DNA of 64,000 nucleotides from Bdellovibrio sp. ArHS (GTDB lineage: Bacteria; Bdellovibrionota; Bdellovibrionia; Bdellovibrionales; Bdellovibrionaceae). The first letter of the stretch is position 1. Every line of letters begins with the position of its first letter. The notes under the pieces are model-generated. The model worked only from the letters and a program-made list of their open reading frames with translations. It was not told where the DNA came from and ran no database searches. Of this stretch, positions 19,259-50,907 are shown in pieces. Location: positions 62,001 through 126,000 of the forward strand of contig NZ_JTEV01000016.1 of NCBI RefSeq assembly GCF_000786105.1. Direction: 5' to 3'. Made by a program: the position numbers and the translations under genes.

Positions 19259-19313
19259 AGGCCTTCTTTCTCTATTCGAAACGAAGAGTGTCTCAGAGTG
19301 AAGCGATAAGAGT

Positions 19314-19349
19314 GAAAGTCCGGTAAAACAGGGGGTGTACCGGACTTTC
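19314..19349. terminator. 12-bp hairpin after gpmA
   Basis: GAAAGTCCGGTA pairs perfectly with TACCGGACTTTC around a 12-nt G-rich loop. There is no T-run after it, so it is either a rho-dependent or stabilising 3' structure of gpmA, or a leader element of the pilin-like operon that begins 53 nt later. Confidence 0.45.
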
Positions 19350-19402
19350 GTATCTTAAGTTTGATATCCTGTGTGTCGATAGGGGCAGATAGGAGATTCG
19401 CC

Positions 19403-22156
19403 ATGAAACCACTCTTCTGGCTAGAACGTTCTATCTTGAAGCAAAATAATAAAGGAAGCGCTTTTGTTCAGGCCCTTCTCGCCGTCGGTATTGTCGGCGT
19501 CATGCTTTATTTTCTATCTCCGCAAGTCATTAAACATCGTCAACAGGTGACCAAAACAGCGTCAATCATCACGGCCCGTCTGGCTTTGCACTCAATGATG
19601 GATTTTACCTTATTTGGTATCAAACAACGCTGGTGTTTTTCCAAAGACTGGATGCCGGAAAAATGCGGTGACTCGATGACGGCGGTCTTGGCGCATCCTC
19701 GCTCTATTGAGCGGATGTTGATGAAGGCCGAAACGGTGAATTTCCTAAGACTGGCTGGCGTCGCGAATCCGGATAAGGCGCCGCTTTATAGTTTTGGCGA
19801 AACCATTTCATTGAAATCTTTCAGTGCTCTTCATCCAGTTTACAAAATCGTGTCTGAGTTAAAGGGCTATAAGACAGAGGCCGTGCGGATTGAAATCACT
19901 CGCGATAGCCGCGGTATTATTCCTGAGTATGGGCGAGAACTTTATTTAATCGTCAAGATCAGTCTTCTGGATGGTGTCGGCAAGCCCCTGCAAGTCGGAG
20001 GCAGCGAGCTCACTACGACGTCGAAAGTGGGTGTGTATCCACGCGAAGTCGGCAGTTTTGCTTTGTTAGTCGCTGGTGATCTGCATCTGGATAAAGAAAA
20101 TCGCAGTGGCGTTCCCGAAGCAAAAGGGGATGCGGCTTTAAAACAATTTCCTTCGCGGAATGACCGCGTGAAGTATCCCGGACTGATTTTTGAAAGTCCG
20201 GTCTTTGTGAACGGAGCGGTTCGTTTGCCCGAAGCTCCCGATGTGGAAACTGATGAAAAAGGTCTTGATACTATTTATACTCCGGTGACCTTCAAAGATA
20301 AGCTTGTCCTGGGAGAAGGTCCGATCCTTCGTCAGAATGTTGAATTTCAACCGCGCACCGCGGGTTCTTCGACGGACCAGTTTTGGGCGAATATTCGTCA
20401 GTTCGGCGGCTTTCAAAAAGGTGTCGAGCTGGATGGAACGCGAGATTTGGGTCTGGATTTTCTTTCCGGAGCCCAGACTAGCGGCCAAACGGTGGACCCT
20501 TCGGATCTTAAAAAATGCGTTGAGTACAACCTTTCAAAATATGATCTGAAAAGCACCTTGAATAGTGAGTTGCGCGGGCAGATTTTGCAAAATACAGGTA
20601 GCAAGCATCAGTACCGTCTGGGATTGACGGATAAAAATCGTTTCAATCCGCAGACGGGCGAAGTGGATTCGCCGAGTGTGATCAAGGGCTTTTTGAACGC
20701 GTGGAATTTGGATAAGAAGGAATCGGCGGTGGCGAAATTCCGGATGAATTTCGGAGACTCTGTGATCGTCACGGGTGAGATCCCAGATAATGGCACCGTG
20801 ACGTTAGAGCCCAAAATCGACCTTTCGGGACTAAAAAACACAATCAAGCGAAATTTGGCAGACGCCCAATTGGCTAAAGACCGATACGAGCAGGACCTCC
20901 GAGAAATTGAAAATGCCTTGGCGCGTGCCAAACAAGACCTGGATCAGGCGGAAGATCAATTGCGCGAGGCTCGCGACAAAAAAGACCGCGATCGTATTGC
21001 GCGTTTGGAAGACCGAATTAACGATATCGAAAGACAGATCCGCGAAATCGAAAGAGCCAAAGAAAACAAAAAGAACGACATTGCTCGCGCGGAAGAGCAA
21101 GTGACAATGTATGAAAGACAATTGGCGGCCGTTGAATCCAAGCAGGGGATTCAGCCGAAAGTTCGTATCGCGGTGAAATACCCCAAAGATCCCAATAATC
21201 CCAACACCGATGCTGTTGGGAATGCCTCTTTCCGTGATTTAGAAGTGACTTTTGAAAATGAAGAGATGCTGGTCGATAGCAACGGCAATCCTTTATCACT
21301 AAATATGCGTTTGGAAGCGTATGACGTCTCGTATTTCAAAAAGTATTCGTTACGTCCCTGGTCTTCAAACAACGTGGGCACTTTGCAGTTCAACCGTGAA
21401 GGCGGCGCCATCAAGGGGTCTCAGTATCTGACCGACAAAGATGGACGGTACCGTGGTGATCTGCCGACTGAAAACGCCTATAAAAACTACGATTTGATTT
21501 GTAAGACGCCAGAAAACTCTGCCTTCGGCCTGAGCGATTGGGGACTGTCGTTTGCGCCAAATTCGCGTTTCTCGTGGGCGTTTACGGATAAGTATGAAGA
21601 TCGCACGGATATCATCTTGGATGGCAATAACTCTTATAGATCGAGCGGCTATTCGAAAGTCGATTTCATCGTAAAGTCCGTGGCGCGCCGATGCATCATT
21701 AAAAGCACGGCCAACTTTGTCACGGGATTTTTCACTTGTGAAAAACTGGTGATTGAACCGCGCTCTTCCGAGTTAAGAATCATCGGAAGCTTCATCGTGA
21801 CTAATGGAATAGAAATTGACGACACGGCCTACGATGCAGGTATTCGCTGGAGTACGATCTATCACCCCATGGCAACTTACGAGCTGCGCCAGGCCCACGT
21901 CTTAAAGGGTGTGAACGGGCAGGATTGTTCGACGATCGCCCGCTATCCCGTATGGCATCCGTATCCTTCGATGTTAAATGTCGCGAATCTTTATCGCTGT
22001 AATTCCATCGTGCTTCGTTCAAAGGCCGATCCTTTCCGTTGGACTTCGGTGGACCCGGACTGCGGCCTTTCGTCATCAACGGGTACCGCGACTACTTGTA
22101 AGAACCGTCTGGTGCATTTTTACGTCTTGGAAATCTCACGGGAGTCCGGCATATGA
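19403..22156 (+). CDS. Giant prepilin-type protein with central coiled coil
   Basis: 917 residues. The N-terminus has a type IV prepilin layout: a short basic leader, Gly18, then a hydrophobic helix SAFVQALLAVGIVGVMLYFL. Position +5 after the cut is Gln, not Glu, as in tip-type pseudopilins that lack Glu5 (GspK is the known example). Residues about 476-582 form a strongly charged coiled coil. The C-terminal third is beta-rich with several Cys. AGGAG precedes ATG 19403. Two further prepilin genes follow with start/stop overlaps. It is about three times the size of known GspK/PilX proteins. The exact role is unknown. Confidence 0.75.
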   Translation: MKPLFWLERSILKQNNKGSAFVQALLAVGIVGVMLYFLSPQVIKHRQQVTKTASIITARLALHSMMDFTLFGIKQRWCFSKDWMPEKCGDSMTAVLAHPRSIERMLMKAETVNFLRLAGVANPDKAPLYSFGETISLKSFSALHPVYKIVSELKGYKTEAVRIEITRDSRGIIPEYGRELYLIVKISLLDGVGKPLQVGGSELTTTSKVGVYPREVGSFALLVAGDLHLDKENRSGVPEAKGDAALKQFPSRNDRVKYPGLIFESPVFVNGAVRLPEAPDVETDEKGLDTIYTPVTFKDKLVLGEGPILRQNVEFQPRTAGSSTDQFWANIRQFGGFQKGVELDGTRDLGLDFLSGAQTSGQTVDPSDLKKCVEYNLSKYDLKSTLNSELRGQILQNTGSKHQYRLGLTDKNRFNPQTGEVDSPSVIKGFLNAWNLDKKESAVAKFRMNFGDSVIVTGEIPDNGTVTLEPKIDLSGLKNTIKRNLADAQLAKDRYEQDLREIENALARAKQDLDQAEDQLREARDKKDRDRIARLEDRINDIERQIREIERAKENKKNDIARAEEQVTMYERQLAAVESKQGIQPKVRIAVKYPKDPNNPNTDAVGNASFRDLEVTFENEEMLVDSNGNPLSLNMRLEAYDVSYFKKYSLRPWSSNNVGTLQFNREGGAIKGSQYLTDKDGRYRGDLPTENAYKNYDLICKTPENSAFGLSDWGLSFAPNSRFSWAFTDKYEDRTDIILDGNNSYRSSGYSKVDFIVKSVARRCIIKSTANFVTGFFTCEKLVIEPRSSELRIIGSFIVTNGIEIDDTAYDAGIRWSTIYHPMATYELRQAHVLKGVNGQDCSTIARYPVWHPYPSMLNVANLYRCNSIVLRSKADPFRWTSVDPDCGLSSSTGTATTCKNRLVHFYVLEISRESGI

Positions 22157-22647
22157 TGGCGCAGATCAAAAACCAAAAAGGTCTATCTATCTTAGAGTCG
22201 CTGTTGGGAATGGCGATGATCACGCTGGTGGGGTCTTTCTTTATTTCCGGCACCATCAATATGCGTAAAGTGGCGAAGGAAAGCGGAACGAAAAATTCGT
22301 TGTACAAACAAATCAATGACGTCATTGAAAATATCCGTCCCAACGTGCGCATGTATCAGATCAATTATTTTACTTCTGACAAATCTCGCAGTGAAGCTTT
22401 GGCCTTGGAAAAACTGCCAATGGCTTGGGGAAATGGAAAGATTTTACCAGCGAAAGACTGCACAGAGTGTCCAGGCCGTTATGGCTTTGTGGTGCAAGCC
22501 TCACCGGACTTTAAAGGCTTGTACATTGTGACTGTGCGCCTGAGCCACAAGGATTGGGCGCAGGCTCAGTCCGGAGGCGATATGAATGCTATTCAGGCGG
22601 GGAACTATGGTTTCGTGGACTATCAATTTGTGGTGAATTCACAATGA
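22153..22647 (+). CDS. Prepilin-type protein (minor pilin/pseudopilin)
   Basis: 164 residues. The leader MMAQIKNQKG is followed by LSILESLLGMAMITLVGSFF, with the conserved Glu at +5 of the predicted prepilin peptidase site. Size and position resemble PilV/GspI-type minor pilins. Two Cys (DCTECPG) suit a pilin disulfide. The start overlaps the stop of the giant prepilin gene, and its stop overlaps the next start, so translation is coupled. ATG 22156 is an alternative start. Confidence 0.8.
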   Translation: MMAQIKNQKGLSILESLLGMAMITLVGSFFISGTINMRKVAKESGTKNSLYKQINDVIENIRPNVRMYQINYFTSDKSRSEALALEKLPMAWGNGKILPAKDCTECPGRYGFVVQASPDFKGLYIVTVRLSHKDWAQAQSGGDMNAIQAGNYGFVDYQFVVNSQ

Positions 22648-23609
22648 GTTTAAATCAAAAAGGTTTTTCTTTAGCAGAGATGGTAGTCGGTGTTGCCCTT
22701 CTGGGTATCATGGGCATGGTTGCGGCTTCGTTCTTCGTCTTCACGGCAAAAACCAAAGAAGAAATCACGAACGAGATCGAAGACAAAGTTGATAACATTA
22801 TCGCCGAGCGAATGATTTTGAAGGATCTGAAATTTTCCGAGCCTTCGTTTAATAACGTGCTGATTACCGACGACACAGGGTTTCGATTTTTCGACTACGT
22901 TTCTGATGTCAGCGGAGACCCCGAGTATGAATCTCCACGCAAGCTGACTTTAGAGTTCGGGCGTCGTAACGAGTTCGTCTTTATTACCACCAACGATAAG
23001 TTGGGCACGATGATGTACACGCCGGCGGTGGCTTATGAGCTTGGGGCTTTGCCTGCGAGTGCCATGGAAGAAGCGTCTTTGACTTTCAAATCTTTGAATA
23101 AAGGCAATGAAGTTTCCAAATCCAGTCCGGCCATTTGGCAGGTGGGAAATCTTCTGATGTTGGATTCTCCCGCAGCTGTTCGTGAAATGACGGCGACGGG
23201 TCCGAATTACAAAGTTCCTGCGCGTTCACCGATTTTCGTGGGGTCCGTGATTGCTCCAGGGGAATCTCGATTAAGCCCTTTGAATCTTCCCGGCTTTCTG
23301 AATCGGACTCATCCACTGTATCCAAACGAGACAATTCAAGACGAAGATAAGTTCTTAAGGGATATACCGCCGATGGGGGGCGCGGCTCCTCTTGTGCGCT
23401 TGAAAGCCGTGAATATTATCAAGTATTATTTAGACAAGGACCCGCAAACGAAGACAGTCAATCTTTTGCGTTCTGTTTATAAGAACAATACGTTTTCGCA
23501 GGGTCAACTATTTGCAGCTGGCGTGTCTAGAGTTGTCTTCTCTAGAAATAACGCACGAGATTCTTTGATTTATTATCAAATTATTCGTCCACAAGATGTG
23601 GGCAAATAA
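22644..23609 (+). CDS. Prepilin-type protein (PilW/GspJ-like)
   Basis: 321 residues. The leader MSLNQKG is cut before FSLAEMVVGVALLGIMGMVA, with Glu at +5. Length and order fit larger minor pilins such as PilW or GspJ. I chose ATG 22644, which overlaps the preceding stop as ATGA; the open frame continues 30 codons further up inside the previous gene. Export and assembly would need a prepilin peptidase and a pilus or type II machine encoded elsewhere. Confidence 0.8.
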   Translation: MSLNQKGFSLAEMVVGVALLGIMGMVAASFFVFTAKTKEEITNEIEDKVDNIIAERMILKDLKFSEPSFNNVLITDDTGFRFFDYVSDVSGDPEYESPRKLTLEFGRRNEFVFITTNDKLGTMMYTPAVAYELGALPASAMEEASLTFKSLNKGNEVSKSSPAIWQVGNLLMLDSPAAVREMTATGPNYKVPARSPIFVGSVIAPGESRLSPLNLPGFLNRTHPLYPNETIQDEDKFLRDIPPMGGAAPLVRLKAVNIIKYYLDKDPQTKTVNLLRSVYKNNTFSQGQLFAAGVSRVVFSRNNARDSLIYYQIIRPQDVGK

Positions 23610-23641
23610 GGTTCGTTTAAGGGGAAAACAAGGGGGCTTGT

Positions 23642-24784
23642 ATGTTTCTTAGAAGATGGCTATCGCTGCCACTTTTGTTCGGCATCGGGGTTTACGCACA
23701 GGCGGAACAACAACCCGCAGCCGTGAATTCCGGCGTCGGTGGTACAGCGGGATTTCAAGGTGTCGTGCTTTCGGGGCAAGTAACCCGGGCAGCACAAAAC
23801 TCAATCACAGTGAATATTACGAATACGTGTTTCGGGACGAACCTGCGTTCGGTGTCCAATCCGATCGCCAGAAACGCGACCGTCGAATTGAATCTGGCAA
23901 TTAATGACAAAGGGACGGTGAAACAGTACTTTGTTAGATATCCATCGGACGTGGTTTCCAAAGCGGGGAATGACACGGTTGTGGCTCTGACCGGGGAAAA
24001 TGTAACCTCGGGGGTTGTCGCCTCTTATGCGGGAAACAGCGTGCGCATGGTGATCCCGGTGACAGTGACAAGCATGGTCGATGAAGAGGGAAATATCAGT
24101 GAGGACTTCGATGTGAAGTTGCACGGAACCTCGTTCACGCAAAAATTTGCGCCGCATGCAGGCCAGCAGTACATGGGAACTAACGGTCCTCTGTCAGCCA
24201 GTGTCTATACCAGTGCTTCCAAAGACGGACGTCAGTACAATGTGTCCGCGTTCTTTCCTGGGGAAAACGGCTACTGTGGCGGCTATTATTCGCCACTGAT
24301 GGTGTTCTTTGATGATCAGCGCCCACGCTTTGAAGGGAAGTCTCAATTCCCATTGAATCCTTCGGGCAAAACGTCTTGGCCAGAAGCCAAAGCTCCCGGA
24401 GCCTTCGTGGCTTTGGATCGTGATGGCGATAAAAAAATCACCAAAGCGGACGAGTTGTTCGGTAATGAAGGTGAAAAATTCAAGAATGGTTTTGAAGCTC
24501 TGAAAGAGCTCGATTCCAACGGCGACGGCGTGATTGATAAAAACGACAAAGACTTCGCCAAGCTTCTTTTGTGGTTCGATAAAAACGGAGATGGCAAGTC
24601 ACAGGCATCAGAGCTGGTGCCGTTAAAATCCCGTATTAAATCCATTTCTTTGCAATACGATGAAAGTGCAAAAACGCCGTTCGGTGCGCGAGCTGAAGCT
24701 CGGGAAAGAAGTACTTTTGTCTTTATTGAAAAAGGAAAAGAGAAGCAGGGATCTATTGTCGATGTGTGGTTCTCGCCAGAATAA
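23642..24784 (+). CDS. Secreted EF-hand calcium-binding protein
   Basis: 380 residues with a signal peptide (MFLRRWLSLPLLFGIGVYAQA). An N-terminal beta-rich region (about 30-240) is followed by three calcium-loop motifs: DRDGDKKITKADE, DSNGDGVIDKNDKDF and DKNGDGKSQASEL, giving dockerin/EF-hand-like sites. It starts 32 nt after the third prepilin gene with an AAGGGGG site and ends at a terminator, so it is probably the last gene of the pilin-like operon. The link to the pilin-like proteins is inferred from position. Confidence 0.8.
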   Translation: MFLRRWLSLPLLFGIGVYAQAEQQPAAVNSGVGGTAGFQGVVLSGQVTRAAQNSITVNITNTCFGTNLRSVSNPIARNATVELNLAINDKGTVKQYFVRYPSDVVSKAGNDTVVALTGENVTSGVVASYAGNSVRMVIPVTVTSMVDEEGNISEDFDVKLHGTSFTQKFAPHAGQQYMGTNGPLSASVYTSASKDGRQYNVSAFFPGENGYCGGYYSPLMVFFDDQRPRFEGKSQFPLNPSGKTSWPEAKAPGAFVALDRDGDKKITKADELFGNEGEKFKNGFEALKELDSNGDGVIDKNDKDFAKLLLWFDKNGDGKSQASELVPLKSRIKSISLQYDESAKTPFGARAEARERSTFVFIEKGKEKQGSIVDVWFSPE

Positions 24785-24808: not shown

Positions 24809-24833
24809 AAACGGCGCTTAGAAAGCGCCGTTT
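24809..24833. terminator. Rho-independent terminator of the pilin-like operon
   Basis: AAACGGCGCTT pairs perfectly with AAGCGCCGTTT around a three-base loop, followed by a T-rich stretch. It closes the unit ending with the EF-hand gene. Confidence 0.8.
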
Positions 24834-28200: not shown

Positions 28201-29685
28201 ATGTCTTCTTCTTTTATCATGGCGATCGACCAAGGTACAACCAGCTCTCGGACTTGTATAATCAATCAAGCCGGAGGTCTTGTCGCAGAGGCCCGTGAAA
28301 CATTCAAGCAGATTTTTCCTAAGCCGGGGTGGGTGGAACACGACCCTGAGGACATTTGGTACTCTACGCAAAGATCCATGCGAATGGCTTTAGAGAAGGC
28401 CGGGATCAAAGGATCGCAAATTCAGGCGATCGGCATTACCAACCAACGTGAAACCGTCATGCTGTGGGATGCTAAAACCAAAAAAGCTCTGCATAATGCG
28501 ATTGTTTGGCAGTGCCGTCGCACGCAGGAAATCTGCGAACGCCTAAAGAAGGCTAAAAAAGAAAAAATGATCACCGCAAAAACGGGATTGGTTTTAGACC
28601 CTTATTTTTCTGCCACCAAGATTCAATGGCTTTTGAAGAACGTCCCTAACGCCAAAAAGAAGGCGCGTGAAGGCCACGTTTTAGCGGGCACTGTGGATAC
28701 GTTTCTTTTGTGGAAGCTGACCAATGGTCAATCTCACAAAACGGATGTCAGCAACGCCTCTCGCACGATGTTGATGAATATTCACATGGGCTGGTGGGAT
28801 GATGACTTGCTAAAGCTTTTTGGTGTGCCACCGGGAATTCTTCCCGAGATCTGTCCTTCGAATGCTGATTTTGGGCGTACGCAAGGCTTGGGTTTTCTGC
28901 CCGACGGAATTCCTATAACAGGAATTCTTGGCGATCAGCAGGCGGCCCTTTTCGGTCAGACTTGTTTTGATGTGGGCGATTCGAAGTGCACATTTGGAAC
29001 AGGCAGCTTCCTTTTGCTTAATACGGGAACGAAGGCCGTGAAGTCGAAGAACAAACTTTTAACGACCATCGCCTGGAAACTGAAAAACGGAGACCTGGTC
29101 TATGCTCTTGAAGGCGGAGCCTTCGTATGCGGAGCCGCCGTTCAGTGGCTGCGCGACGGACTCGGATTGTTTCAACACTCATCCGATATCGAAGCTTTGG
29201 CAAAAACCGTCGAGGACACCCAGGGCGTGGAGTTTGTTCCCGCTTTGACGGGGTTAGGCGCGCCTCACTGGCGTCCTGAAGCCCGTGGTGTGATCAGTGG
29301 CCTGACGCGTGGAACGACCAAAGCCCACGTTGCCCGGGCGACGTTAGAAGCGATGGCTTTGCAGAATGTCGATATTCTGGTGACGATGCAAAAAGACCTG
29401 GGCAAAAAAATTCGCAGTGTGCGCGTTGATGGCGGAGCCGCGGCCAACGATCTGCTGATGCAAATACAAGCGGACTATTGCGGCGTGAATGTGGTTCGTC
29501 CACAAAACCTGGAAACAACCGCTTTAGGAGCGGCTTTCATTGCCGGGCTGGGGGCGGGAATATGGAAAGATTTAAAAGAGATTCGTCGGGTCTGGAAGAC
29601 TAACAAGGAATTCAAAGTGAAGATGACGGCGGGGGCGCGCAAAGCGCGTCTGCACCGTTGGGCAAAGGCTTTGGAGAAAGTTTAA
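28201..29685 (+). CDS. glpK: Glycerol kinase
   Basis: Phosphorylates glycerol to sn-glycerol-3-phosphate with ATP in the cytoplasm. 494 residues of the FGGY fold: DQGTTSSRT at the start, GITNQRETVMLWD, ATKIQWLL, GILGDQQAALFGQ and the C-terminal DGGAAANDLLMQIQAD. A GTG two codons upstream is an alternative start. The divergent neighbour is an acylglycerophosphate acyltransferase, a functional fit, since prey phospholipids could supply glycerol. The stop overlaps the next ATG. Confidence 0.96.
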   Translation: MSSSFIMAIDQGTTSSRTCIINQAGGLVAEARETFKQIFPKPGWVEHDPEDIWYSTQRSMRMALEKAGIKGSQIQAIGITNQRETVMLWDAKTKKALHNAIVWQCRRTQEICERLKKAKKEKMITAKTGLVLDPYFSATKIQWLLKNVPNAKKKAREGHVLAGTVDTFLLWKLTNGQSHKTDVSNASRTMLMNIHMGWWDDDLLKLFGVPPGILPEICPSNADFGRTQGLGFLPDGIPITGILGDQQAALFGQTCFDVGDSKCTFGTGSFLLLNTGTKAVKSKNKLLTTIAWKLKNGDLVYALEGGAFVCGAAVQWLRDGLGLFQHSSDIEALAKTVEDTQGVEFVPALTGLGAPHWRPEARGVISGLTRGTTKAHVARATLEAMALQNVDILVTMQKDLGKKIRSVRVDGGAAANDLLMQIQADYCGVNVVRPQNLETTALGAAFIAGLGAGIWKDLKEIRRVWKTNKEFKVKMTAGARKARLHRWAKALEKV

Positions 29686-30401
29686 TGAACTCGTCGAATC
29701 CAAATGCTCCGCAGATGATCTTTAAAAAGGTAGCGCTTTCGGAAAAGAAAATGCTTTTTCGCGAAGTGGCTCACGATAAGTTGCAGGTGGCGGTGAAAGG
29801 ATCTTCGCAGGAAGAACTTTTTCATTTAATCGCCGTGCAGACGGAAAAAGACGAGGCCTTGTTGTGTCATCATACTGCGGACTCGAAAAGTATTACGACG
29901 GCGCAAAAGTGTGTGGTGAACTTCGCCTTTAATAACGAACGCTATTTCATTCAAACGGAACTATATTTTGAAGCGGGTTGGGCCGTATTAAAAATTGATG
30001 GTGACTTGTTTCAGCTGCAAAGACGGGCCAATGCACGCCTTGATTTACCAGAAAAGTACGATGCTCTTTTTATCCTGACTAAAGCCGTCGGTAAGTCTTT
30101 ATTTTTAGATTGCCGAGTCAAAGACATCAGCGCTGGTGGCATTAAGATTGAGCTTCCCCAGACGGCCCCGGAAGTAAAAATCGGGGACATCTTAAAAGGA
30201 AATTTAAGATTGGGCGCTCGCCGTGCGATCGAGTTCGAAGTGGAAGTGCGTTTTGTCCAGAAGAAGGAACATGGTGGCGGATTGACCACGCAAATCGCCG
30301 GAGTGCAATTTCTTCACGTCGACACTCTTCTAGAAGGGCGTCTTTTAAGTTTAGTGATGGATTTGCAACGCGAAATTTTCCTGAAATACCCTAAAAAGTA
30401 G
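29685..30401 (+). CDS. PilZ-domain protein, probable cyclic-di-GMP receptor
   Basis: 238 residues. The PilZ signature is complete: RRANAR (residues 113-118) and DISAGG (147-152), which contact cyclic di-GMP in this family. The N-terminal 100 residues form a separate YcgR-N-like beta domain, as in flagellar brake proteins. The start codon overlaps the glpK stop (TAATG), giving translational coupling to a metabolic gene, which is unusual. The output is unknown. Confidence 0.82.
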   Translation: MNSSNPNAPQMIFKKVALSEKKMLFREVAHDKLQVAVKGSSQEELFHLIAVQTEKDEALLCHHTADSKSITTAQKCVVNFAFNNERYFIQTELYFEAGWAVLKIDGDLFQLQRRANARLDLPEKYDALFILTKAVGKSLFLDCRVKDISAGGIKIELPQTAPEVKIGDILKGNLRLGARRAIEFEVEVRFVQKKEHGGGLTTQIAGVQFLHVDTLLEGRLLSLVMDLQREIFLKYPKK

Positions 30402-30485
30402 GCGCCGACGACTTGGGTTGGTGTCATCTTGTCCGGCACGAATCTTGGAATAAGGCCTCCTTGTCTGTTTCAACAAGGAGTTTTT

Positions 30486-31223
30486 ATGAAACCACTTTTA
30501 ACAAGTCTTTTAGTCTCCGCAGTTCTTTTCCAGGCTCCGGTGGCATTCTCTCAAGATCGCGGCGGCCGCGACAATCATGGCCCCGTACGCCCTGGTGACA
30601 GTCGTCCTGGTGACCGCGGTGATCGAAATGATCGCGATAACGACCGCGTCGAAAGAGATCGTCGCGATCGTGAAGAACGTGATCGCCGTGAGCGTGAAGA
30701 GCGTGATCGTCGTGAAAGAGAAGAACGTGGCCGTGGTCGCTACAATCCGCCACCGCGCCATGGGCACAACCCTCCGCCAAGATACCCGGATTACCCGCGC
30801 AATCCAACTTATCCAAACTATCCGACGTACCCGAACTATCCTTCTTACCCAACACCGCCGTCATCTTATGACAACAGTGTTTATTTCTCTGATATCACTC
30901 GTCGCAGTGGTGGTGAATGGGTGCGCGTCAGCTTCAGCTATCCTGCGTATGTCGACTATGTTCGTGCGAGTGTTTCGAACGCGTCCATCCTGGTTCACGA
31001 GGCTGTTTTGCATACAGAAAGTGGTCGCCAATTGGTTCTTCGTAATTTGGCTTCTCAGATGTTGTATCCCGGAAACTCATACACATCTGAATACATCACG
31101 GCCGGTGAGCGCATCGTAGCTATCGATCTTCGTTTAGAATCATACGGTAATTATGGTGATATTCGTTTGACGGTGACCTCTGGAAGCGGAACACCGCAAA
31201 TCCGTGCGGAGCGCTTTCCCTAG
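30486..31223 (+). CDS. Secreted Arg/Asp-Glu and Pro/Tyr repeat protein
   Basis: 245 residues with a signal peptide (MKPLLTSLLVSAVLFQAPVAFS). The mature part begins with a charged low-complexity stretch of RDRREREER units (about 23-100), then a PPRYPDYPRNP/PTYPNYP segment to about 140, then a beta-rich domain of about 100 residues (VYFSDITRRSGGEWVRVSF onward). AAGGAG precedes ATG 30486. The repeats leave long open frames on other strands, which I discount. The function is unknown; a surface or matrix protein is possible. Confidence 0.75.
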   Translation: MKPLLTSLLVSAVLFQAPVAFSQDRGGRDNHGPVRPGDSRPGDRGDRNDRDNDRVERDRRDREERDRREREERDRREREERGRGRYNPPPRHGHNPPPRYPDYPRNPTYPNYPTYPNYPSYPTPPSSYDNSVYFSDITRRSGGEWVRVSFSYPAYVDYVRASVSNASILVHEAVLHTESGRQLVLRNLASQMLYPGNSYTSEYITAGERIVAIDLRLESYGNYGDIRLTVTSGSGTPQIRAERFP

Positions 31224-45203: not shown

Positions 45204-47804
45204 TTATTCATCGCGGACGATGGAAACTTCGATTGAGTAAATGCCATAAGACTCATTGATGTCATTGCCCCAAAATATAAGTTTTAAGGCATTGTTAAGA
45301 TTAAGAGCCGTCGGCATAAATCCGCGGGCCGGTGTTACGTTGCCCTCGACTTTAGTGCTGGCCCAGATGTTGCCGTTTTTAAGAATCAGATCCATATGCA
45401 GTGTTTCCCAGTTCGAGGATGTGGTGGGATTGTTACTGTGCCCCGTTGCCGGAAAGCCGTAGGTGGCGGTTTCTGTCGTTGTATTCCATAAGCCCAGCAT
45501 GTTGTTGGCGGAGTCATAGCGTTGAAAAACCACCACGGTGGTGCCATCAGAAATTCCTATGGCGATGTCATTGTCCGCAGTCAGAATACCTTGATGATAG
45601 CGAATTTTTAAGTGATAGGTTCCCGTAGCAGAAAGCTGACCTGCTGTTGTGAGTGGAATCTGCGTCAGTTTTTGGCCGGTGCTGATGACAGTGTAGTCGC
45701 AGCGATCGGCGGTATAGGTCGGTGTTAGGCTATGCACGCCATTATCACAGATCCACTTCGCATTCATCAGGCGATGGAAAACGGTAGGCTGAGGAGGATT
45801 TAGTAAAGCCCATTCTGAGCCGTTACAAAATTCCATCAGCTTTCTTGTCGAGTTATAGCGCATACTGCCTTCCGCGGTCGCATCACACGAAATGGCAGTA
45901 CCTAGTTTAACAGCTCCATTCACATCCAAGGCAGCGGCTGGCGTGGCAGTGCCAATTCCCACCTTGCCGTTGCTGAGTACGGTCATTCGGTCAGTGCCTG
46001 CCGTAACCAAACGAAGGGTGTCATCATTTGTAGAACGCTCCACCTCTATCTTGGTATTTCCGTCGGCGTCCCCTAAGACTGTGGTGCCTGCAGAGTTGAG
46101 TTTGATCACTGTCAGAGCAATTCGATGAAGTCCGCCCGTTGGACCGTTCTGGGAGTCATAAAGTGTCATCGTCACTTTGTCCCCGACGGTGAGACTTTTT
46201 GTGATTGACGTCGTTGTGGTTTGGCATCCTTGCGCGATGGGCATAGTGGAGCTTTGCGCGAAGGCTCCATTGACGTTGATTTTTACGACAGAATAATGCG
46301 TTGTCTGCGGGCAGAAGGTGGCTTGTGCTTCCAGCAGGTAAACTCCATCTGAGGGAATGTCGACTCGATCTGCCGCCAGGTTGGCGCCGCCCAACGTGTT
46401 CAAGGTCGCGATATTTAGATCAGGTGAAAACTCAGTTGTCGCGGGGTAGGCGCCCGTTGAAATGTCGCTGGCTTCAAGACGACTGACCAAAGGAGTGGTC
46501 GATGCGCTTCCCGCGGCGGGCCAGGAAGATCGGCAATCTCCCGCGATACAAATTTTTTGTGCATTTGCCTCTCCACTGACATCGAGCTTGTAACTTGGCG
46601 AGGCTGTGCCGATACCTACATTGCCCGCGTCATAGTGAATTCTTCCCGTTCCGGCATCTTGCCACAACATCGCGCTAGCGGGGAGCCTAGCACTGTCAAT
46701 GACTCCCGCAGTGATCTGGCTGGCATCGATACTGAGGCTCTGACATTTAAAGGTGTCGGTCGCAGACTGATAGTAAAGAGACTCTGCAGCGGAACATGTC
46801 GCGCTGGCAAACGCGCCACCAAAAGGGGAAACGATCGATTTGATGTCGGCTAATCCTAAAAATGCTGGTGTCCATTGCGATGTTTGATAGCGCAGCACTT
46901 GTCCCACCGCGCTCGGGGTAGTGGATGACACCGAGGTGCCCTGAATTTTCTGAACTGTGGGCGCAGGATAGCTGCCGCTGAGATCTCCGCTCGCGAAGCC
47001 ACCAGGGGTGACTCCCGAAATACTCACCGAAGAAGCATTTGTTAAACGCCCTTGCGCATCGACAGTGATGGCCGGAACTTGTGTCGCGGATCCGTAAGCC
47101 CCCGGAGTCACCGTCGTGTTTGTCAACGATACCGTTTTTGAATCCGTGCCCGTGGCACTGATCCCCGTGCCGGCAAGAATGTCGGTGATAACGCCAGCGC
47201 CCCCGGCATCGGTCACGCAGGTGAAGCTATTTCCATCCCAGCTGATCACTTGGCCAGCGGCACATGCCGTGCCAGGGACGGCATTTTTTAGCAATAGGTC
47301 GTTTAAAGTTTTATCCGCGATTTTTTGCGCGCTATAGGCCGTGTATGAAAACGGCACCGAGCGAATGACGTTGGCGGGACTAATAATTCTCCAGCCAGAG
47401 CCGTCATGGAACTGAACTTTCAGTTGTCGATCGGCAATACTTGCGGCCATCCAGGAACCACTGCCAGCACACGCGTGCGACACTCCGTTGACAAAGACAT
47501 CAGATAAAGAAAAAACGGGACCGGTAGGAAACAGGCGACTGCCATTTCCGATAGATACATCAAAAACTCCGTTAGAGTTTTGCATGTTCACGGCGTCTTT
47601 TTGCTCGCGATAAAGAACGCAGGTTCCGTCGGAAGAGGTGATTTCAAATAGAAAACTGACATTATTGAAATCCAAAGGACTTCCGTCAGATTTTAAAATG
47701 CGCCCCTGATAACTCAGGCTTTGCGGCGACGACATCGCTACGTGGCATGAGAAACTCAGTATCAAGAACAGCAGAAGATGAAATACGTTCCAAAGGGTCT
47801 TCAT
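45204..47804 (-). CDS. Long surface fibre protein, MAT-like, with lectin-like tip
   Basis: 866 residues with a signal peptide (FHLLLFLILSFSCHVAMS). Order: N-terminal domain (SPQSLSYQGRILKSDGSPL onward, about 25-175), a Gly/Ser/Thr-rich beta shaft with one VDAQGRLT..GDLSGSYP repeat, a C1q/TNF-like jelly-roll domain (about 441-570), a RYNSTRKLMEFCNGSEW knob, and a beta-sandwich tip from about 685. The layout resembles the mosaic adhesive trimer proteins of B. bacteriovorus, which bind prey surfaces. Trimerisation and ligand are inferred. I chose ATG 47804, after AAGGA. Confidence 0.75.
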   Translation of the reverse strand: MKTLWNVFHLLLFLILSFSCHVAMSSPQSLSYQGRILKSDGSPLDFNNVSFLFEITSSDGTCVLYREQKDAVNMQNSNGVFDVSIGNGSRLFPTGPVFSLSDVFVNGVSHACAGSGSWMAASIADRQLKVQFHDGSGWRIISPANVIRSVPFSYTAYSAQKIADKTLNDLLLKNAVPGTACAAGQVISWDGNSFTCVTDAGGAGVITDILAGTGISATGTDSKTVSLTNTTVTPGAYGSATQVPAITVDAQGRLTNASSVSISGVTPGGFASGDLSGSYPAPTVQKIQGTSVSSTTPSAVGQVLRYQTSQWTPAFLGLADIKSIVSPFGGAFASATCSAAESLYYQSATDTFKCQSLSIDASQITAGVIDSARLPASAMLWQDAGTGRIHYDAGNVGIGTASPSYKLDVSGEANAQKICIAGDCRSSWPAAGSASTTPLVSRLEASDISTGAYPATTEFSPDLNIATLNTLGGANLAADRVDIPSDGVYLLEAQATFCPQTTHYSVVKINVNGAFAQSSTMPIAQGCQTTTTSITKSLTVGDKVTMTLYDSQNGPTGGLHRIALTVIKLNSAGTTVLGDADGNTKIEVERSTNDDTLRLVTAGTDRMTVLSNGKVGIGTATPAAALDVNGAVKLGTAISCDATAEGSMRYNSTRKLMEFCNGSEWALLNPPQPTVFHRLMNAKWICDNGVHSLTPTYTADRCDYTVISTGQKLTQIPLTTAGQLSATGTYHLKIRYHQGILTADNDIAIGISDGTTVVVFQRYDSANNMLGLWNTTTETATYGFPATGHSNNPTTSSNWETLHMDLILKNGNIWASTKVEGNVTPARGFMPTALNLNNALKLIFWGNDINESYGIYSIEVSIVRDE

Positions 47805-47850
47805 ACATTCCTTCAATTTTTAAAAAAGCGGCTTTAAAAAACAGAGCTTC

Positions 47851-50800
47851 TTAATTCGAACATTCGTAAACAGCGCGAACCCACACTCCATTACAGGGGG
47901 TCGCCATCGACCAAGAGATTCCTCCGTTGGCGCCAACGGCAACGCCACCGTTGTAGGGAGTTTCATTCGGTCCCAAAGCGGCCCAGTCACTGTCGGAACC
48001 GCAGGCTACGGCTTTTGACAAATAGCCGATGCATCCCGAACTGGGGTATCCGTTGTCACATTGGCCTGCACTCCAATTAATCAAATTTTGGCCATTCACT
48101 TGCGTGCTGTAAGAGGCGTTATCATAAGTGCAAACAGTACGTCGTGTAGTGGAGCTCACCGGGCGCCAAGTGCTGCCGTCACAGAATTCCAATTTTTTAG
48201 TTGCACTGTTATAGCGGGTGGCGCCTTCTATCATGGCGCCACAGCTGGCACCGGTGTTGCCGATACGCACCTCACCGCGAGCATCCAAAGTCGTGACAGG
48301 TGTGTTGGTGCCGACACCTACATTCCCTGATGCCGCAATGCCGAGACCCGTGTTTGAGCCATCTCCGGAAAGAAAGTGATTGCCCAAAACTAGGTTGCTT
48401 GTTGCGACATGATTTCCGAGGTTGTCAGAGGACTCTGCAGGTTTTTCCATGCGGTAAAGACTTATTTTGAAAGTTTGTCCCGCCCCGTAGTCCACGGCAT
48501 TGCTGATGGCGCACGCGCCAGAGCCGGTCCATCTGCGAATCTCGATTTTATAAGTAATGACGGATTGGTCGACGGTGTAATTGAACTCGCCGACAAGCTG
48601 GCTTGTGCGATCTGTGGTCAGCGAATGTGTATTAGCGACTTCGGAGACTTGGGTGCCATCGGTAATCCGGAAGAAGCAGCTTCCCGTATTTGAATAAAAA
48701 GAACCATACGCGTAAACCACATAGCGGCCAGCTTTAAGATTGGCGAAACGAACTGCGGGAATTTTTCCTTCACTGGGGGCCAAGGCCGAGCCGTCAAGAA
48801 CGGGAGCATTACAGTTTGCGTTGGCCGTATTCAAAGTTGCAAACGTGGTGCTATCCAAACTCCAGGTGCAATTTGCGGAGGAAATTGTTTTTGCAGAGCC
48901 GATGAAGGCACTGCCACCCGCCGTGATGCCATTCGCGGAAGCCAAAGTGCTACCATCGGGGAATTTGATACCTCCGACCGTGGATTCGATTTGTCCCGCG
49001 ACCGAGACCGCACCGCTACTATAGACGATTTTCCCTGAACCCCCATCTTGCCAATAAGTCGCACTCGCAGGCAGACGGGCGGCGGCAATTTGACCGCTAG
49101 TAATTTGTGAAGCGGCCATCGCGATGTTTTGACACTTAAAAGTATCTGAAGAGGATTCATAGTAGAGGGATTGATCTGCGGTGCAAGCCGAGTTGGCAAA
49201 CACGCCACCGAAAGGTGTGATCGTAGCCCGCAGATCACCGATGTTCAAAAAGGCGGGTGTCCATTGACCACCTTGATAGCGCAGAGCTTGTCCGACAGAA
49301 GAGGGGCCTGTTGCTGAAATATTTGTGGATTGAAGTTTGGCCACTGTGGGATTGGGATAGCTTCCGGAAAGGTCGCCACCGGCGCTTCCCGCTGGAGCGA
49401 CACCAGAGATTGTCACATTCGCTGCCGTCGTCAAACGACCTTGGGCATCGACAGAGAAGGTGGGAACTTGCGTGGCCGAACCATAGGTGCCAGCGGTAAC
49501 TGCCGTGTTGGTCAGACCAAGACTGACGGTACCAGAGGTTCCGCCCCCCGACAGGCCCGTGCTTGCGGTCACTCCGGTTAAGGTCGCTGCGTTGGTGCCG
49601 GATTCTGTGGCGATGCGCACCCAGGTGCTGCCATTGTCGCGATAAATTTCTTTACTGTCGGTAGAAATATAAATTCTTCCCGCCGAACCCGCGACCGGCT
49701 TGGAAGAGTTCAGTCCCGACTGCAACGAAACCACATCTGTAGCTGTGTCAGTACCGGCATTACCGATAAGTTTGTCAGTGATTCCGTAACCTCCAAGAGT
49801 TGTGGGTTTTCCTGCGGTGATCTGCGACCAATTAAGTCCGATATTGCTACAGGTCCACGAACCACTCGGCGACACGAAAGTCAGAGTCTGGTTCACCGCA
49901 CAGGTCGCTGGCATTTGCGAAGATTTTAAAAGAGCTCCTGCGTCCGTTAAGTCGGCTGATGACAAAGCCGTGTTGATCCATTGGCTGCCGTCATACTTTA
50001 AGAAGTGACCATTTGTTGGCGTCGAAATCATCAGATTTTTTCCAGCGATTTTGACGACCGAGGGATTAGGGTAAGAACCTGAAAGGTCGCCACCTGCTGC
50101 TCCGCCAGGAGAAACTCCGGAAATGGTTTGTGCACTCGCCGCAGTCAGACGGCCCTGAGCGTCCACGGTGAAGACGGGAACTTGCGTTGTCGATCCGTAG
50201 CTTCCGGCCGTCACGGTCGTATTGCCAAGCGCGATATTTTTTGTCGATGTGCCGGTGACGGAAATACCCGCGCCACCAGTGACATCGGATATAACGCCGG
50301 AGCCCCCAGCATCGGTGACACATACGAACTGAGTTCCAGTCCAACTAAGAACTTCGCCGGAAAGACAGGCCGTAGACGGGGTCGCGTCTTTAAGCAAAAG
50401 ATCATTCAAGGTTTTGTCGACAATTTTTTGGGCGCTGTAAGAGGTGTAAGAAAAGGGTACGGAGCGGATCATGTTGGCTGGTGAAATAACCTTCCAGCCA
50501 TTGCCGTCGTGGAATTGAACTTTCAATTGTCTTTCAGATGAATTGCTGGCACTCCAACTGCCACTGCCATAGCAGCTATGGGATTTGCCGTTGACGAAGA
50601 CGTCAGAAAGTTCGAAAACGGGAGATGTGGGGAAAAGGCGAGTGCCGGTGCCAATGGGAACATCGAAAACGCCACTGGAGTTTTGCATGTTCACGCCATC
50701 TTTTTGTTCGCGATAAAGAACGCAGCTTCCATCTGATGAAGTGATTTCGAAAAGAAAACTGACGTTGTTATACTCTAACGGTGAACCGTCGATTTTTAAA

Positions 50801-50907
50801 ATTCGCCCTTGATAGCTCAGACTTTGCGGCGATGCATGGCCGGTGCTGGATAAAATTCCCGCGAATATGGACAGCACGATAAAAGAGACGTTCCGAAGTG
50901 TGACCAT
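47851..50907 (-). CDS. Long surface fibre protein, MAT-like, with Cys-rich tip
   Basis: 1018 residues with a signal peptide (FIVLSIFAGILSSTGHAS). The first 175 residues are closely similar to the neighbour at 45204. The shaft carries the VDAQGRLT..GDLSGSYP repeat twice (DNA 49368-49511 and 50079-50224). A TNF-like domain follows at about 686-820, then a RYNSATKKLEFCDGSTW knob and a different, Cys-rich 100-residue tip (VCTYDNASYSTQ to the end). So the pair share base and shaft but not the tip. No good ribosome site is visible. The gap to the next fibre gene is 46 nt. Confidence 0.75.
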   Translation of the reverse strand: MVTLRNVSFIVLSIFAGILSSTGHASPQSLSYQGRILKIDGSPLEYNNVSFLFEITSSDGSCVLYREQKDGVNMQNSSGVFDVPIGTGTRLFPTSPVFELSDVFVNGKSHSCYGSGSWSASNSSERQLKVQFHDGNGWKVISPANMIRSVPFSYTSYSAQKIVDKTLNDLLLKDATPSTACLSGEVLSWTGTQFVCVTDAGGSGVISDVTGGAGISVTGTSTKNIALGNTTVTAGSYGSTTQVPVFTVDAQGRLTAASAQTISGVSPGGAAGGDLSGSYPNPSVVKIAGKNLMISTPTNGHFLKYDGSQWINTALSSADLTDAGALLKSSQMPATCAVNQTLTFVSPSGSWTCSNIGLNWSQITAGKPTTLGGYGITDKLIGNAGTDTATDVVSLQSGLNSSKPVAGSAGRIYISTDSKEIYRDNGSTWVRIATESGTNAATLTGVTASTGLSGGGTSGTVSLGLTNTAVTAGTYGSATQVPTFSVDAQGRLTTAANVTISGVAPAGSAGGDLSGSYPNPTVAKLQSTNISATGPSSVGQALRYQGGQWTPAFLNIGDLRATITPFGGVFANSACTADQSLYYESSSDTFKCQNIAMAASQITSGQIAAARLPASATYWQDGGSGKIVYSSGAVSVAGQIESTVGGIKFPDGSTLASANGITAGGSAFIGSAKTISSANCTWSLDSTTFATLNTANANCNAPVLDGSALAPSEGKIPAVRFANLKAGRYVVYAYGSFYSNTGSCFFRITDGTQVSEVANTHSLTTDRTSQLVGEFNYTVDQSVITYKIEIRRWTGSGACAISNAVDYGAGQTFKISLYRMEKPAESSDNLGNHVATSNLVLGNHFLSGDGSNTGLGIAASGNVGVGTNTPVTTLDARGEVRIGNTGASCGAMIEGATRYNSATKKLEFCDGSTWRPVSSTTRRTVCTYDNASYSTQVNGQNLINWSAGQCDNGYPSSGCIGYLSKAVACGSDSDWAALGPNETPYNGGVAVGANGGISWSMATPCNGVWVRAVYECSN

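Follow-up and report, generated by a model that had tools for sequence, protein, structure and literature searches.

The four genes at positions 19403-24784 (+ strand) of the window, the whole 64,000-nucleotide stretch of Bdellovibrio sp. ArHS DNA that was analysed, probably encode a tip or priming complex that caps a type IV filament; the likeliest candidate is the type IVa pilus of attack-phase cells. Bdellovibrio pili are needed for predation, and the way in which this predator grips its prey is an old question. If this operon and its paralogue do encode pilus tips, the attachment factor narrows to a defined target of four proteins.

The first gene (19403-22156, +) encodes a giant prepilin of 917 aa with the leader NNKG/SAFVQALL (slash, cleavage site) and Gln at +5, belonging to the Bd2726/Bd2212 family. 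It is followed by the genes of a small prepilin of 164 aa (22153-22647, +; NQKG/LSILE; Bd2725/Bd2211 family) and of a middle prepilin of 321 aa (22644-23609, +; NQKG/FSLAE; Bd2724/Bd2210 family), both with Glu5; the latter matched the N_methyl profile above cut-off and is weakly GspJ-like. The three genes are joined by 4-base overlaps at ATGA junctions, and their products carry a class III prepilin leader with Gly at -1 and a hydrophobic helix. The fourth gene (23642-24784, +), starting 32 bases past the middle prepilin gene, encodes a secreted protein of 380 aa (Bd2723/Bd2209 family) with calcium loops at D259-E271, D291-D302, and D313-E324. A hairpin between gpmA and the operon (19307-19357, +; -24.5 kcal/mol, z -5.6), with no T run after it, probably marks where the gpmA transcript stops, and an intrinsic-terminator-like hairpin closes the operon (24809-24833, +; z -5.4); for neither hairpin did any of 200 shuffles reach the same stability. 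No pilus assembly gene adjoins the cassette. The original prediction had described overlapping prepilin genes led by a 917-residue Gln5 pilin, Glu5 in the other two, a closing protein with three calcium loops, flanking hairpins, and no neighbouring assembly genes, and all of these features are present. So is the long coiled coil that it assigned to the giant pilin (20825-21139, +; residues 475-579), which the AF2 model (pLDDT 85.8) predicts to be an antiparallel helical hairpin formed by residues 475-525 and 529-579.

Across its family, the giant pilin is 835-1066 aa long, and the helical hairpin is optional, being reduced to 4-8 residues in 11 of 47 members and spanning 65-224 residues in the other 36. 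Many invariant cysteines were seen in the conserved C-terminal part of the family alignment. In fold searches with the whole model, the coiled coil filled the results and no other part had a match, and searches of PHROGs and NCBIfam returned only coiled-coil or weak matches.

Glu5 is needed by a pilin subunit for pairing with the N-terminus of the subunit above it, and what is known of GspK indicates that the top of a filament is the one place for a subunit that lacks it. In the corresponding alignment column, Glu was absent from 46/46 giants and present in 42/42 small and 44/44 middle pilins, and the Gly at -1 is conserved family-wide. The giant would thus be placed at the apex because Glu5 is missing. 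The original prediction had named Gln5 as a feature of such subunits; it is indeed present here, but the trait conserved throughout the family is the missing Glu5 and not Gln5 itself (Q in 29 of 46, L in five, Y and T in three each, M in two, and N, A, I, and S in one each). The T2SS GspK of the host genome, which has Val at this position, also lacks Glu5.

Their conservation shows the four genes to be a module rather than a chance cluster. A giant-pilin search of 60 relatives found homologues in 28 genomes, several with two to four copies, and the quartet occurs at about 48 loci of Bdellovibrionota, in nearly invariant order and down to about 25-30% identity, one member being undetected in a few contig-edge or divergent loci. 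A second cassette, likewise complete, lies on contig C4 of the host genome (3.54 Mb). Cassettes A and B were separate splits in all four gene trees, with weak support for A in the middle-pilin tree, and the pairwise distances among the four proteins correlated at 0.86-0.92, a value to which shared ancestry contributes. This recurrence, together with the matching trees, indicates that the calcium protein belongs to the unit. A contig scan with two peptide patterns gave matches in Bdellovibrionota loci alone, and the giant pilin was present in 49 of the 241 genomes sampled from this phylum. Most carriers are metagenome-assembled genomes of unknown lifestyle. The cassette was not found in the complete Bdellovibrio genome G014 or in genome G025, which we take to be the epibiotic predator P. 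exovorus JSS; given the latter, the module does not mark predators in general.

A candidate FliA (sigma-28) promoter, TTAAG-N16-TCGATA, lies at 19355-19381 (+) and ends 21 bases upstream of the start codon of the giant pilin. It fits the attack-phase FliA consensus TTAAG-N16-CCGATA (PMC3627812), and TTAAG-N16-YCGATA has this single exact match in the window. A one-mismatch search in the window alone was not significant, and the weight of the observation lies in position and conservation: sites scoring at least 9/11 were found in 12 of 14 orthologous upstream regions, vs. 13 of 280 shuffles, and in 11 of 12 paralogous upstream regions, vs. 8 of 240 shuffles. The TTAAG/TCGATA pair is also the best-conserved block upstream of both orthologues and paralogues. 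These results suggest that the cassette is probably driven by an attack-phase FliA promoter.

The counterparts of the module in B. bacteriovorus HD100 are Bd2723-Bd2726 and Bd2209-Bd2212, an orthologous and a paralogous operon with the same four genes, gene order, and protein lengths, for which the available portion of Abulude 2025 (PMC12034629) reports AlphaFold-Multimer complexes of the four proteins (ipTM 0.837 and 0.852) with the giant as the hub, expression of both operons in attack phase, and a link of Bd2210, Bd2211, Bd2212, and Bd2723 to predation loss. Microscopy and flow cytometry showed that a Bd2210 transposon mutant attached poorly and neither killed nor rounded the prey, and Bd2726 was confirmed by mini-Tn-seq (Duncan 2019, PMC6561027). 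The original prediction had supposed that involvement in prey contact would be a novelty; the HD100 counterparts were, on the contrary, already tied to predation by Tn-seq (PMC6561027). Since genes of both operons are individually needed, the cassettes are not fully redundant, with the caveat of insertion polarity, as Bd2210::tn is possibly polar on Bd2209. We found no paper that names these two operons a pilus tip; PMC12034629 gives predicted complexes and expression with no such label in its available portion, where no mention was found of the Glu5 pattern, the FliA site, the disarming of the SPM-like domain described below, or the spread of the module. What was already known, as far as that portion goes, is thus that the HD100 genes are needed for predation and that four-protein complexes are predicted; the new points here are the spread of the module, its strict division into Glu5 and non-Glu5 pilins, the probable FliA promoter, and the disarming of the SPM-like domain.

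The nature of the carrier fibre was considered in the light of the other filaments of the cell. PilT is encoded by 239/241 genomes of the phylum and GspG by 19/19 of those tested, and these nearly universal presence patterns cannot pick the fibre; co-occurrence with GspJ was likewise uninformative, and many genomes encode pili but no cassette. An alternative tip of the T2SS pseudopilus, in which the giant, small, and middle pilins would replace GspK, GspI, and GspJ in order to load or expel enzymes or the calcium protein, is rather unlikely. The ubiquity of GspG in the genomes tested would agree with it, as would the combination of one large pilin without Glu5, as in GspK, with two that have it, and local hhalign of the full-length middle pilin placed it nearest to GspJ, at 96% across 58 columns in the helix region. 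However, the sequence homology ends at the N-terminal helix, past which no similarity to GspG-K, including GspI and GspK, was detected (trimmed-profile hhalign <2% probability for all pairs), and the cassette has a calcium protein in addition. The host genome also has its own GspG-K set, with a full GspH-I-J-K in the gsp operon on another contig (G000:C21), and the published phenotype is a loss of attachment, in a class that includes pilT. The giant pilin itself was ruled out as the T2SS GspK, as the genome has a separate GspK with the T2SSK_1st domain.

It is quite unlikely that the cassette forms a Tad (type IVc) pilus tip comparable to the KilL-KilM-KilN complex of Myxococcus xanthus. The available portion of PMC12075869 describes a killing pilus that ends in a large pilin combining two long helices with a beta scaffold, and the architecture is similar, with paralogous clusters of small, middle, and large pilins that act in predation, long helices, and disulfides. 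KilN-like complexes were also reported there in B. bacteriovorus from a structure search, with gene numbers given in a figure and not in the text, and they may or may not be the products of these operons; in addition, the type IVb (flp) pilins of Bdellovibrio are required for predation (PMC5430801). Against this, KilL, KilM, and KilN are homologues of TadE, TadF, and TadG, and no SPM-like fourth protein is described in that portion of the paper, whereas 32/42 of the small and 43/44 of the middle pilins matched N_methyl, the T4a/T2SS-type prepilin profile, with no TadE match among the matches listed. No cassette protein reached the cut-off for the TadE/TadG-type N-terminal domains (PF07811, PF13400; best E 0.46, for PF13400). 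A strong PF13400 match, to a TadG-like protein, was found elsewhere in the host genome (G000:C19) and at 132 kb in G006, presumed to be HD100. Moreover, flp knock-outs still adhere to prey (PMC5430801), whereas Bd2210::tn does so poorly. As the T2SS and the Tad system have candidate tip genes of their own and the cassette pilins match N_methyl and not TadE, the type IVa pilus is the most likely carrier. The attachment phenotype of the Bd2210 mutant is in line with this carrier; it falls in the same class as pilT::tn, although this class also includes the TadC and AglS mutants (PMC6561027), and the shared class is thus weak evidence for a type IVa pilus.

A complex anchored by prepilin-like helices at the surface or in the periplasm that never enters a fibre, for instance an adhesin or sensor at the cell pole, is quite improbable. 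The place of these proteins in a fibre is itself putative, and Bd2726 has been named among putative c-di-GMP binders (PMC6561027), but such a complex would hardly explain the strict Glu5/non-Glu5 split and the conserved cleavage Gly.

The C-terminal half of the calcium protein (residues 215-380; 24284-24781, +), which holds the three EF-hand-like loops, is predicted to have the fold of the self-processing module (SPM) of FrpC. The family profile matched this module with E 2.3e-26, and the AF2 model (pLDDT 83.2) matched it in Foldseek with E 1.9e-8 and in VIA with Z 20.1 (2.4 A over 152 residues), the best unrelated chain reaching Z 6.6. The likeness to the FrpC structures (PDB 6sjw/6sjx, PMC7078468) extends over the whole fold, the calcium loops, the Trp pair, and the equivalent of Asp579. 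All 44 homologues share D291, N293, D295, and D302 of the middle loop; Pro218, Trp246, Trp311, and Asp374 are conserved, and Pro218, both tryptophans, and the Asp579 equivalent are invariant. By contrast, the cassette domain is not embedded in an RTX protein and has Ser-Pro where FrpC has the cleaved Asp-Pro: residue 218 aligns with Pro415, the first residue of the mature FrpC module, so that Ser217-Pro218 replaces Asp414-Pro415. Asp414 is the residue that is released and linked to lysine in FrpC (PMC7078468). The equivalent position is Ser in 43 of the 44 members and Asp in one, and calcium binding without cutting or cross-linking is thus expected. We infer that the fold was retained for calcium-dependent folding and that the clip-and-link activity was lost. 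That the calcium protein clips itself and forms isopeptide bonds with prey surface proteins by the SPM chemistry is very improbable indeed, for all the likeness of its fold and the conservation of Pro218, Trp246, Trp311, and Asp374, given this Ser and the Ser-Pro likewise found in the solitary SPM-like domain of G014. If the proposed reading is true, an autocatalytic cross-linking module has been redeployed as a calcium-folded tip domain.

The sole member of the 44 that retains Asp-Pro at the cleavage position (L095:3588-4832) is a natural test case for the clip-and-link activity. The solitary domain of G014, the Bdellovibrio genome without the cassette, lies in a 1133-codon frame (L176, G014:C4). 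In VIA, the N-terminal domain of the calcium protein weakly resembled pilus proteins of Gram-positive bacteria (Z about 6), and it may be Ig-like.

The best reading of these data is that of two non-redundant type IVa tip complexes with a PilY1-like calcium cap, in which tip position, carrier fibre, and direct prey binding are what we infer. The three prepilins would insert in the inner membrane, be cut after Gly, and bundle via their N-terminal helices, with the giant at the apex and the Glu5 pilins beneath, linking it to the growing fibre. The giant would bear a large cysteine-rich head with the helical hairpin, on which the Sec-exported calcium protein would dock as the outermost, PilY1-like part, made up of a putative Ig-like N-terminal domain and a calcium-folded SPM domain without the clip-and-link Asp. 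FliA would produce the unit in attack phase, the tip would make or stabilise the grip on the prey, and the second cassette would provide a related tip that is no substitute for the first. The tip complex with an unusually large tip protein that had been predicted thus fits the evidence best, with the calcium protein as part of the unit; its assignment to a given fibre is the less secure part.

Like the minor pilin-PilY1 tip/priming complex of type IVa pili in Pseudomonas and Myxococcus, the cassette combines several prepilins with one Sec-exported calcium-binding non-pilin, and several clusters occur per genome. It differs in the size of its large pilin, in the SPM-like nature of its calcium protein, and in the operon having no FimU-like fourth pilin. 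PilY1 (PF05567) had no match in the cassette proteins or in the 241 genomes, with a weak control (only Haloferax at E<=0.1); this would fit a replacement of PilY1 by the SPM-like protein, the control being too weak for a claim of absence. Tentatively, and with some doubt, the cassettes may represent a type IV pilus tip of a separate class that occurs in Bdellovibrionota alone, with a disarmed SPM protein in place of PilY1 on a giant apex pilin and with at least two non-interchangeable tips per cell that serve successive steps of docking on and entry into the prey.

Other pilin and fibre loci were also observed. A further pilin trio (L051:5264-9283, G000:C10) comprises proteins of 684, 261, and 419 aa, of which the first has a TIG domain and the third lacks Glu5, and is a candidate tip set. 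An 887 aa prepilin with Glu5 adjoins a 320 aa prepilin near a contig end (L050:12680-16305, G000:C42). Solitary pilins were found near large secreted fibre-like proteins in L053 (6083-11381), L054, and L057, and the fibre-like protein of L053 has a Hint domain at its end. In the window, a PilZ-domain protein (29658-30401, +) precedes one that carries PF18820, the 'Bdellovibrio beta-sandwich' domain (30429-31223, +). Finally, two adjacent large secreted proteins of 870 and 1018 aa (45204-50907, - strand) have in common 'SLSYQGRILK.DGSPL..NNVSFLFEITSSDG' and matches to phage tail-fibre PHROGs, and they resemble the MAT fibre adhesins that have been described in Bdellovibrio.
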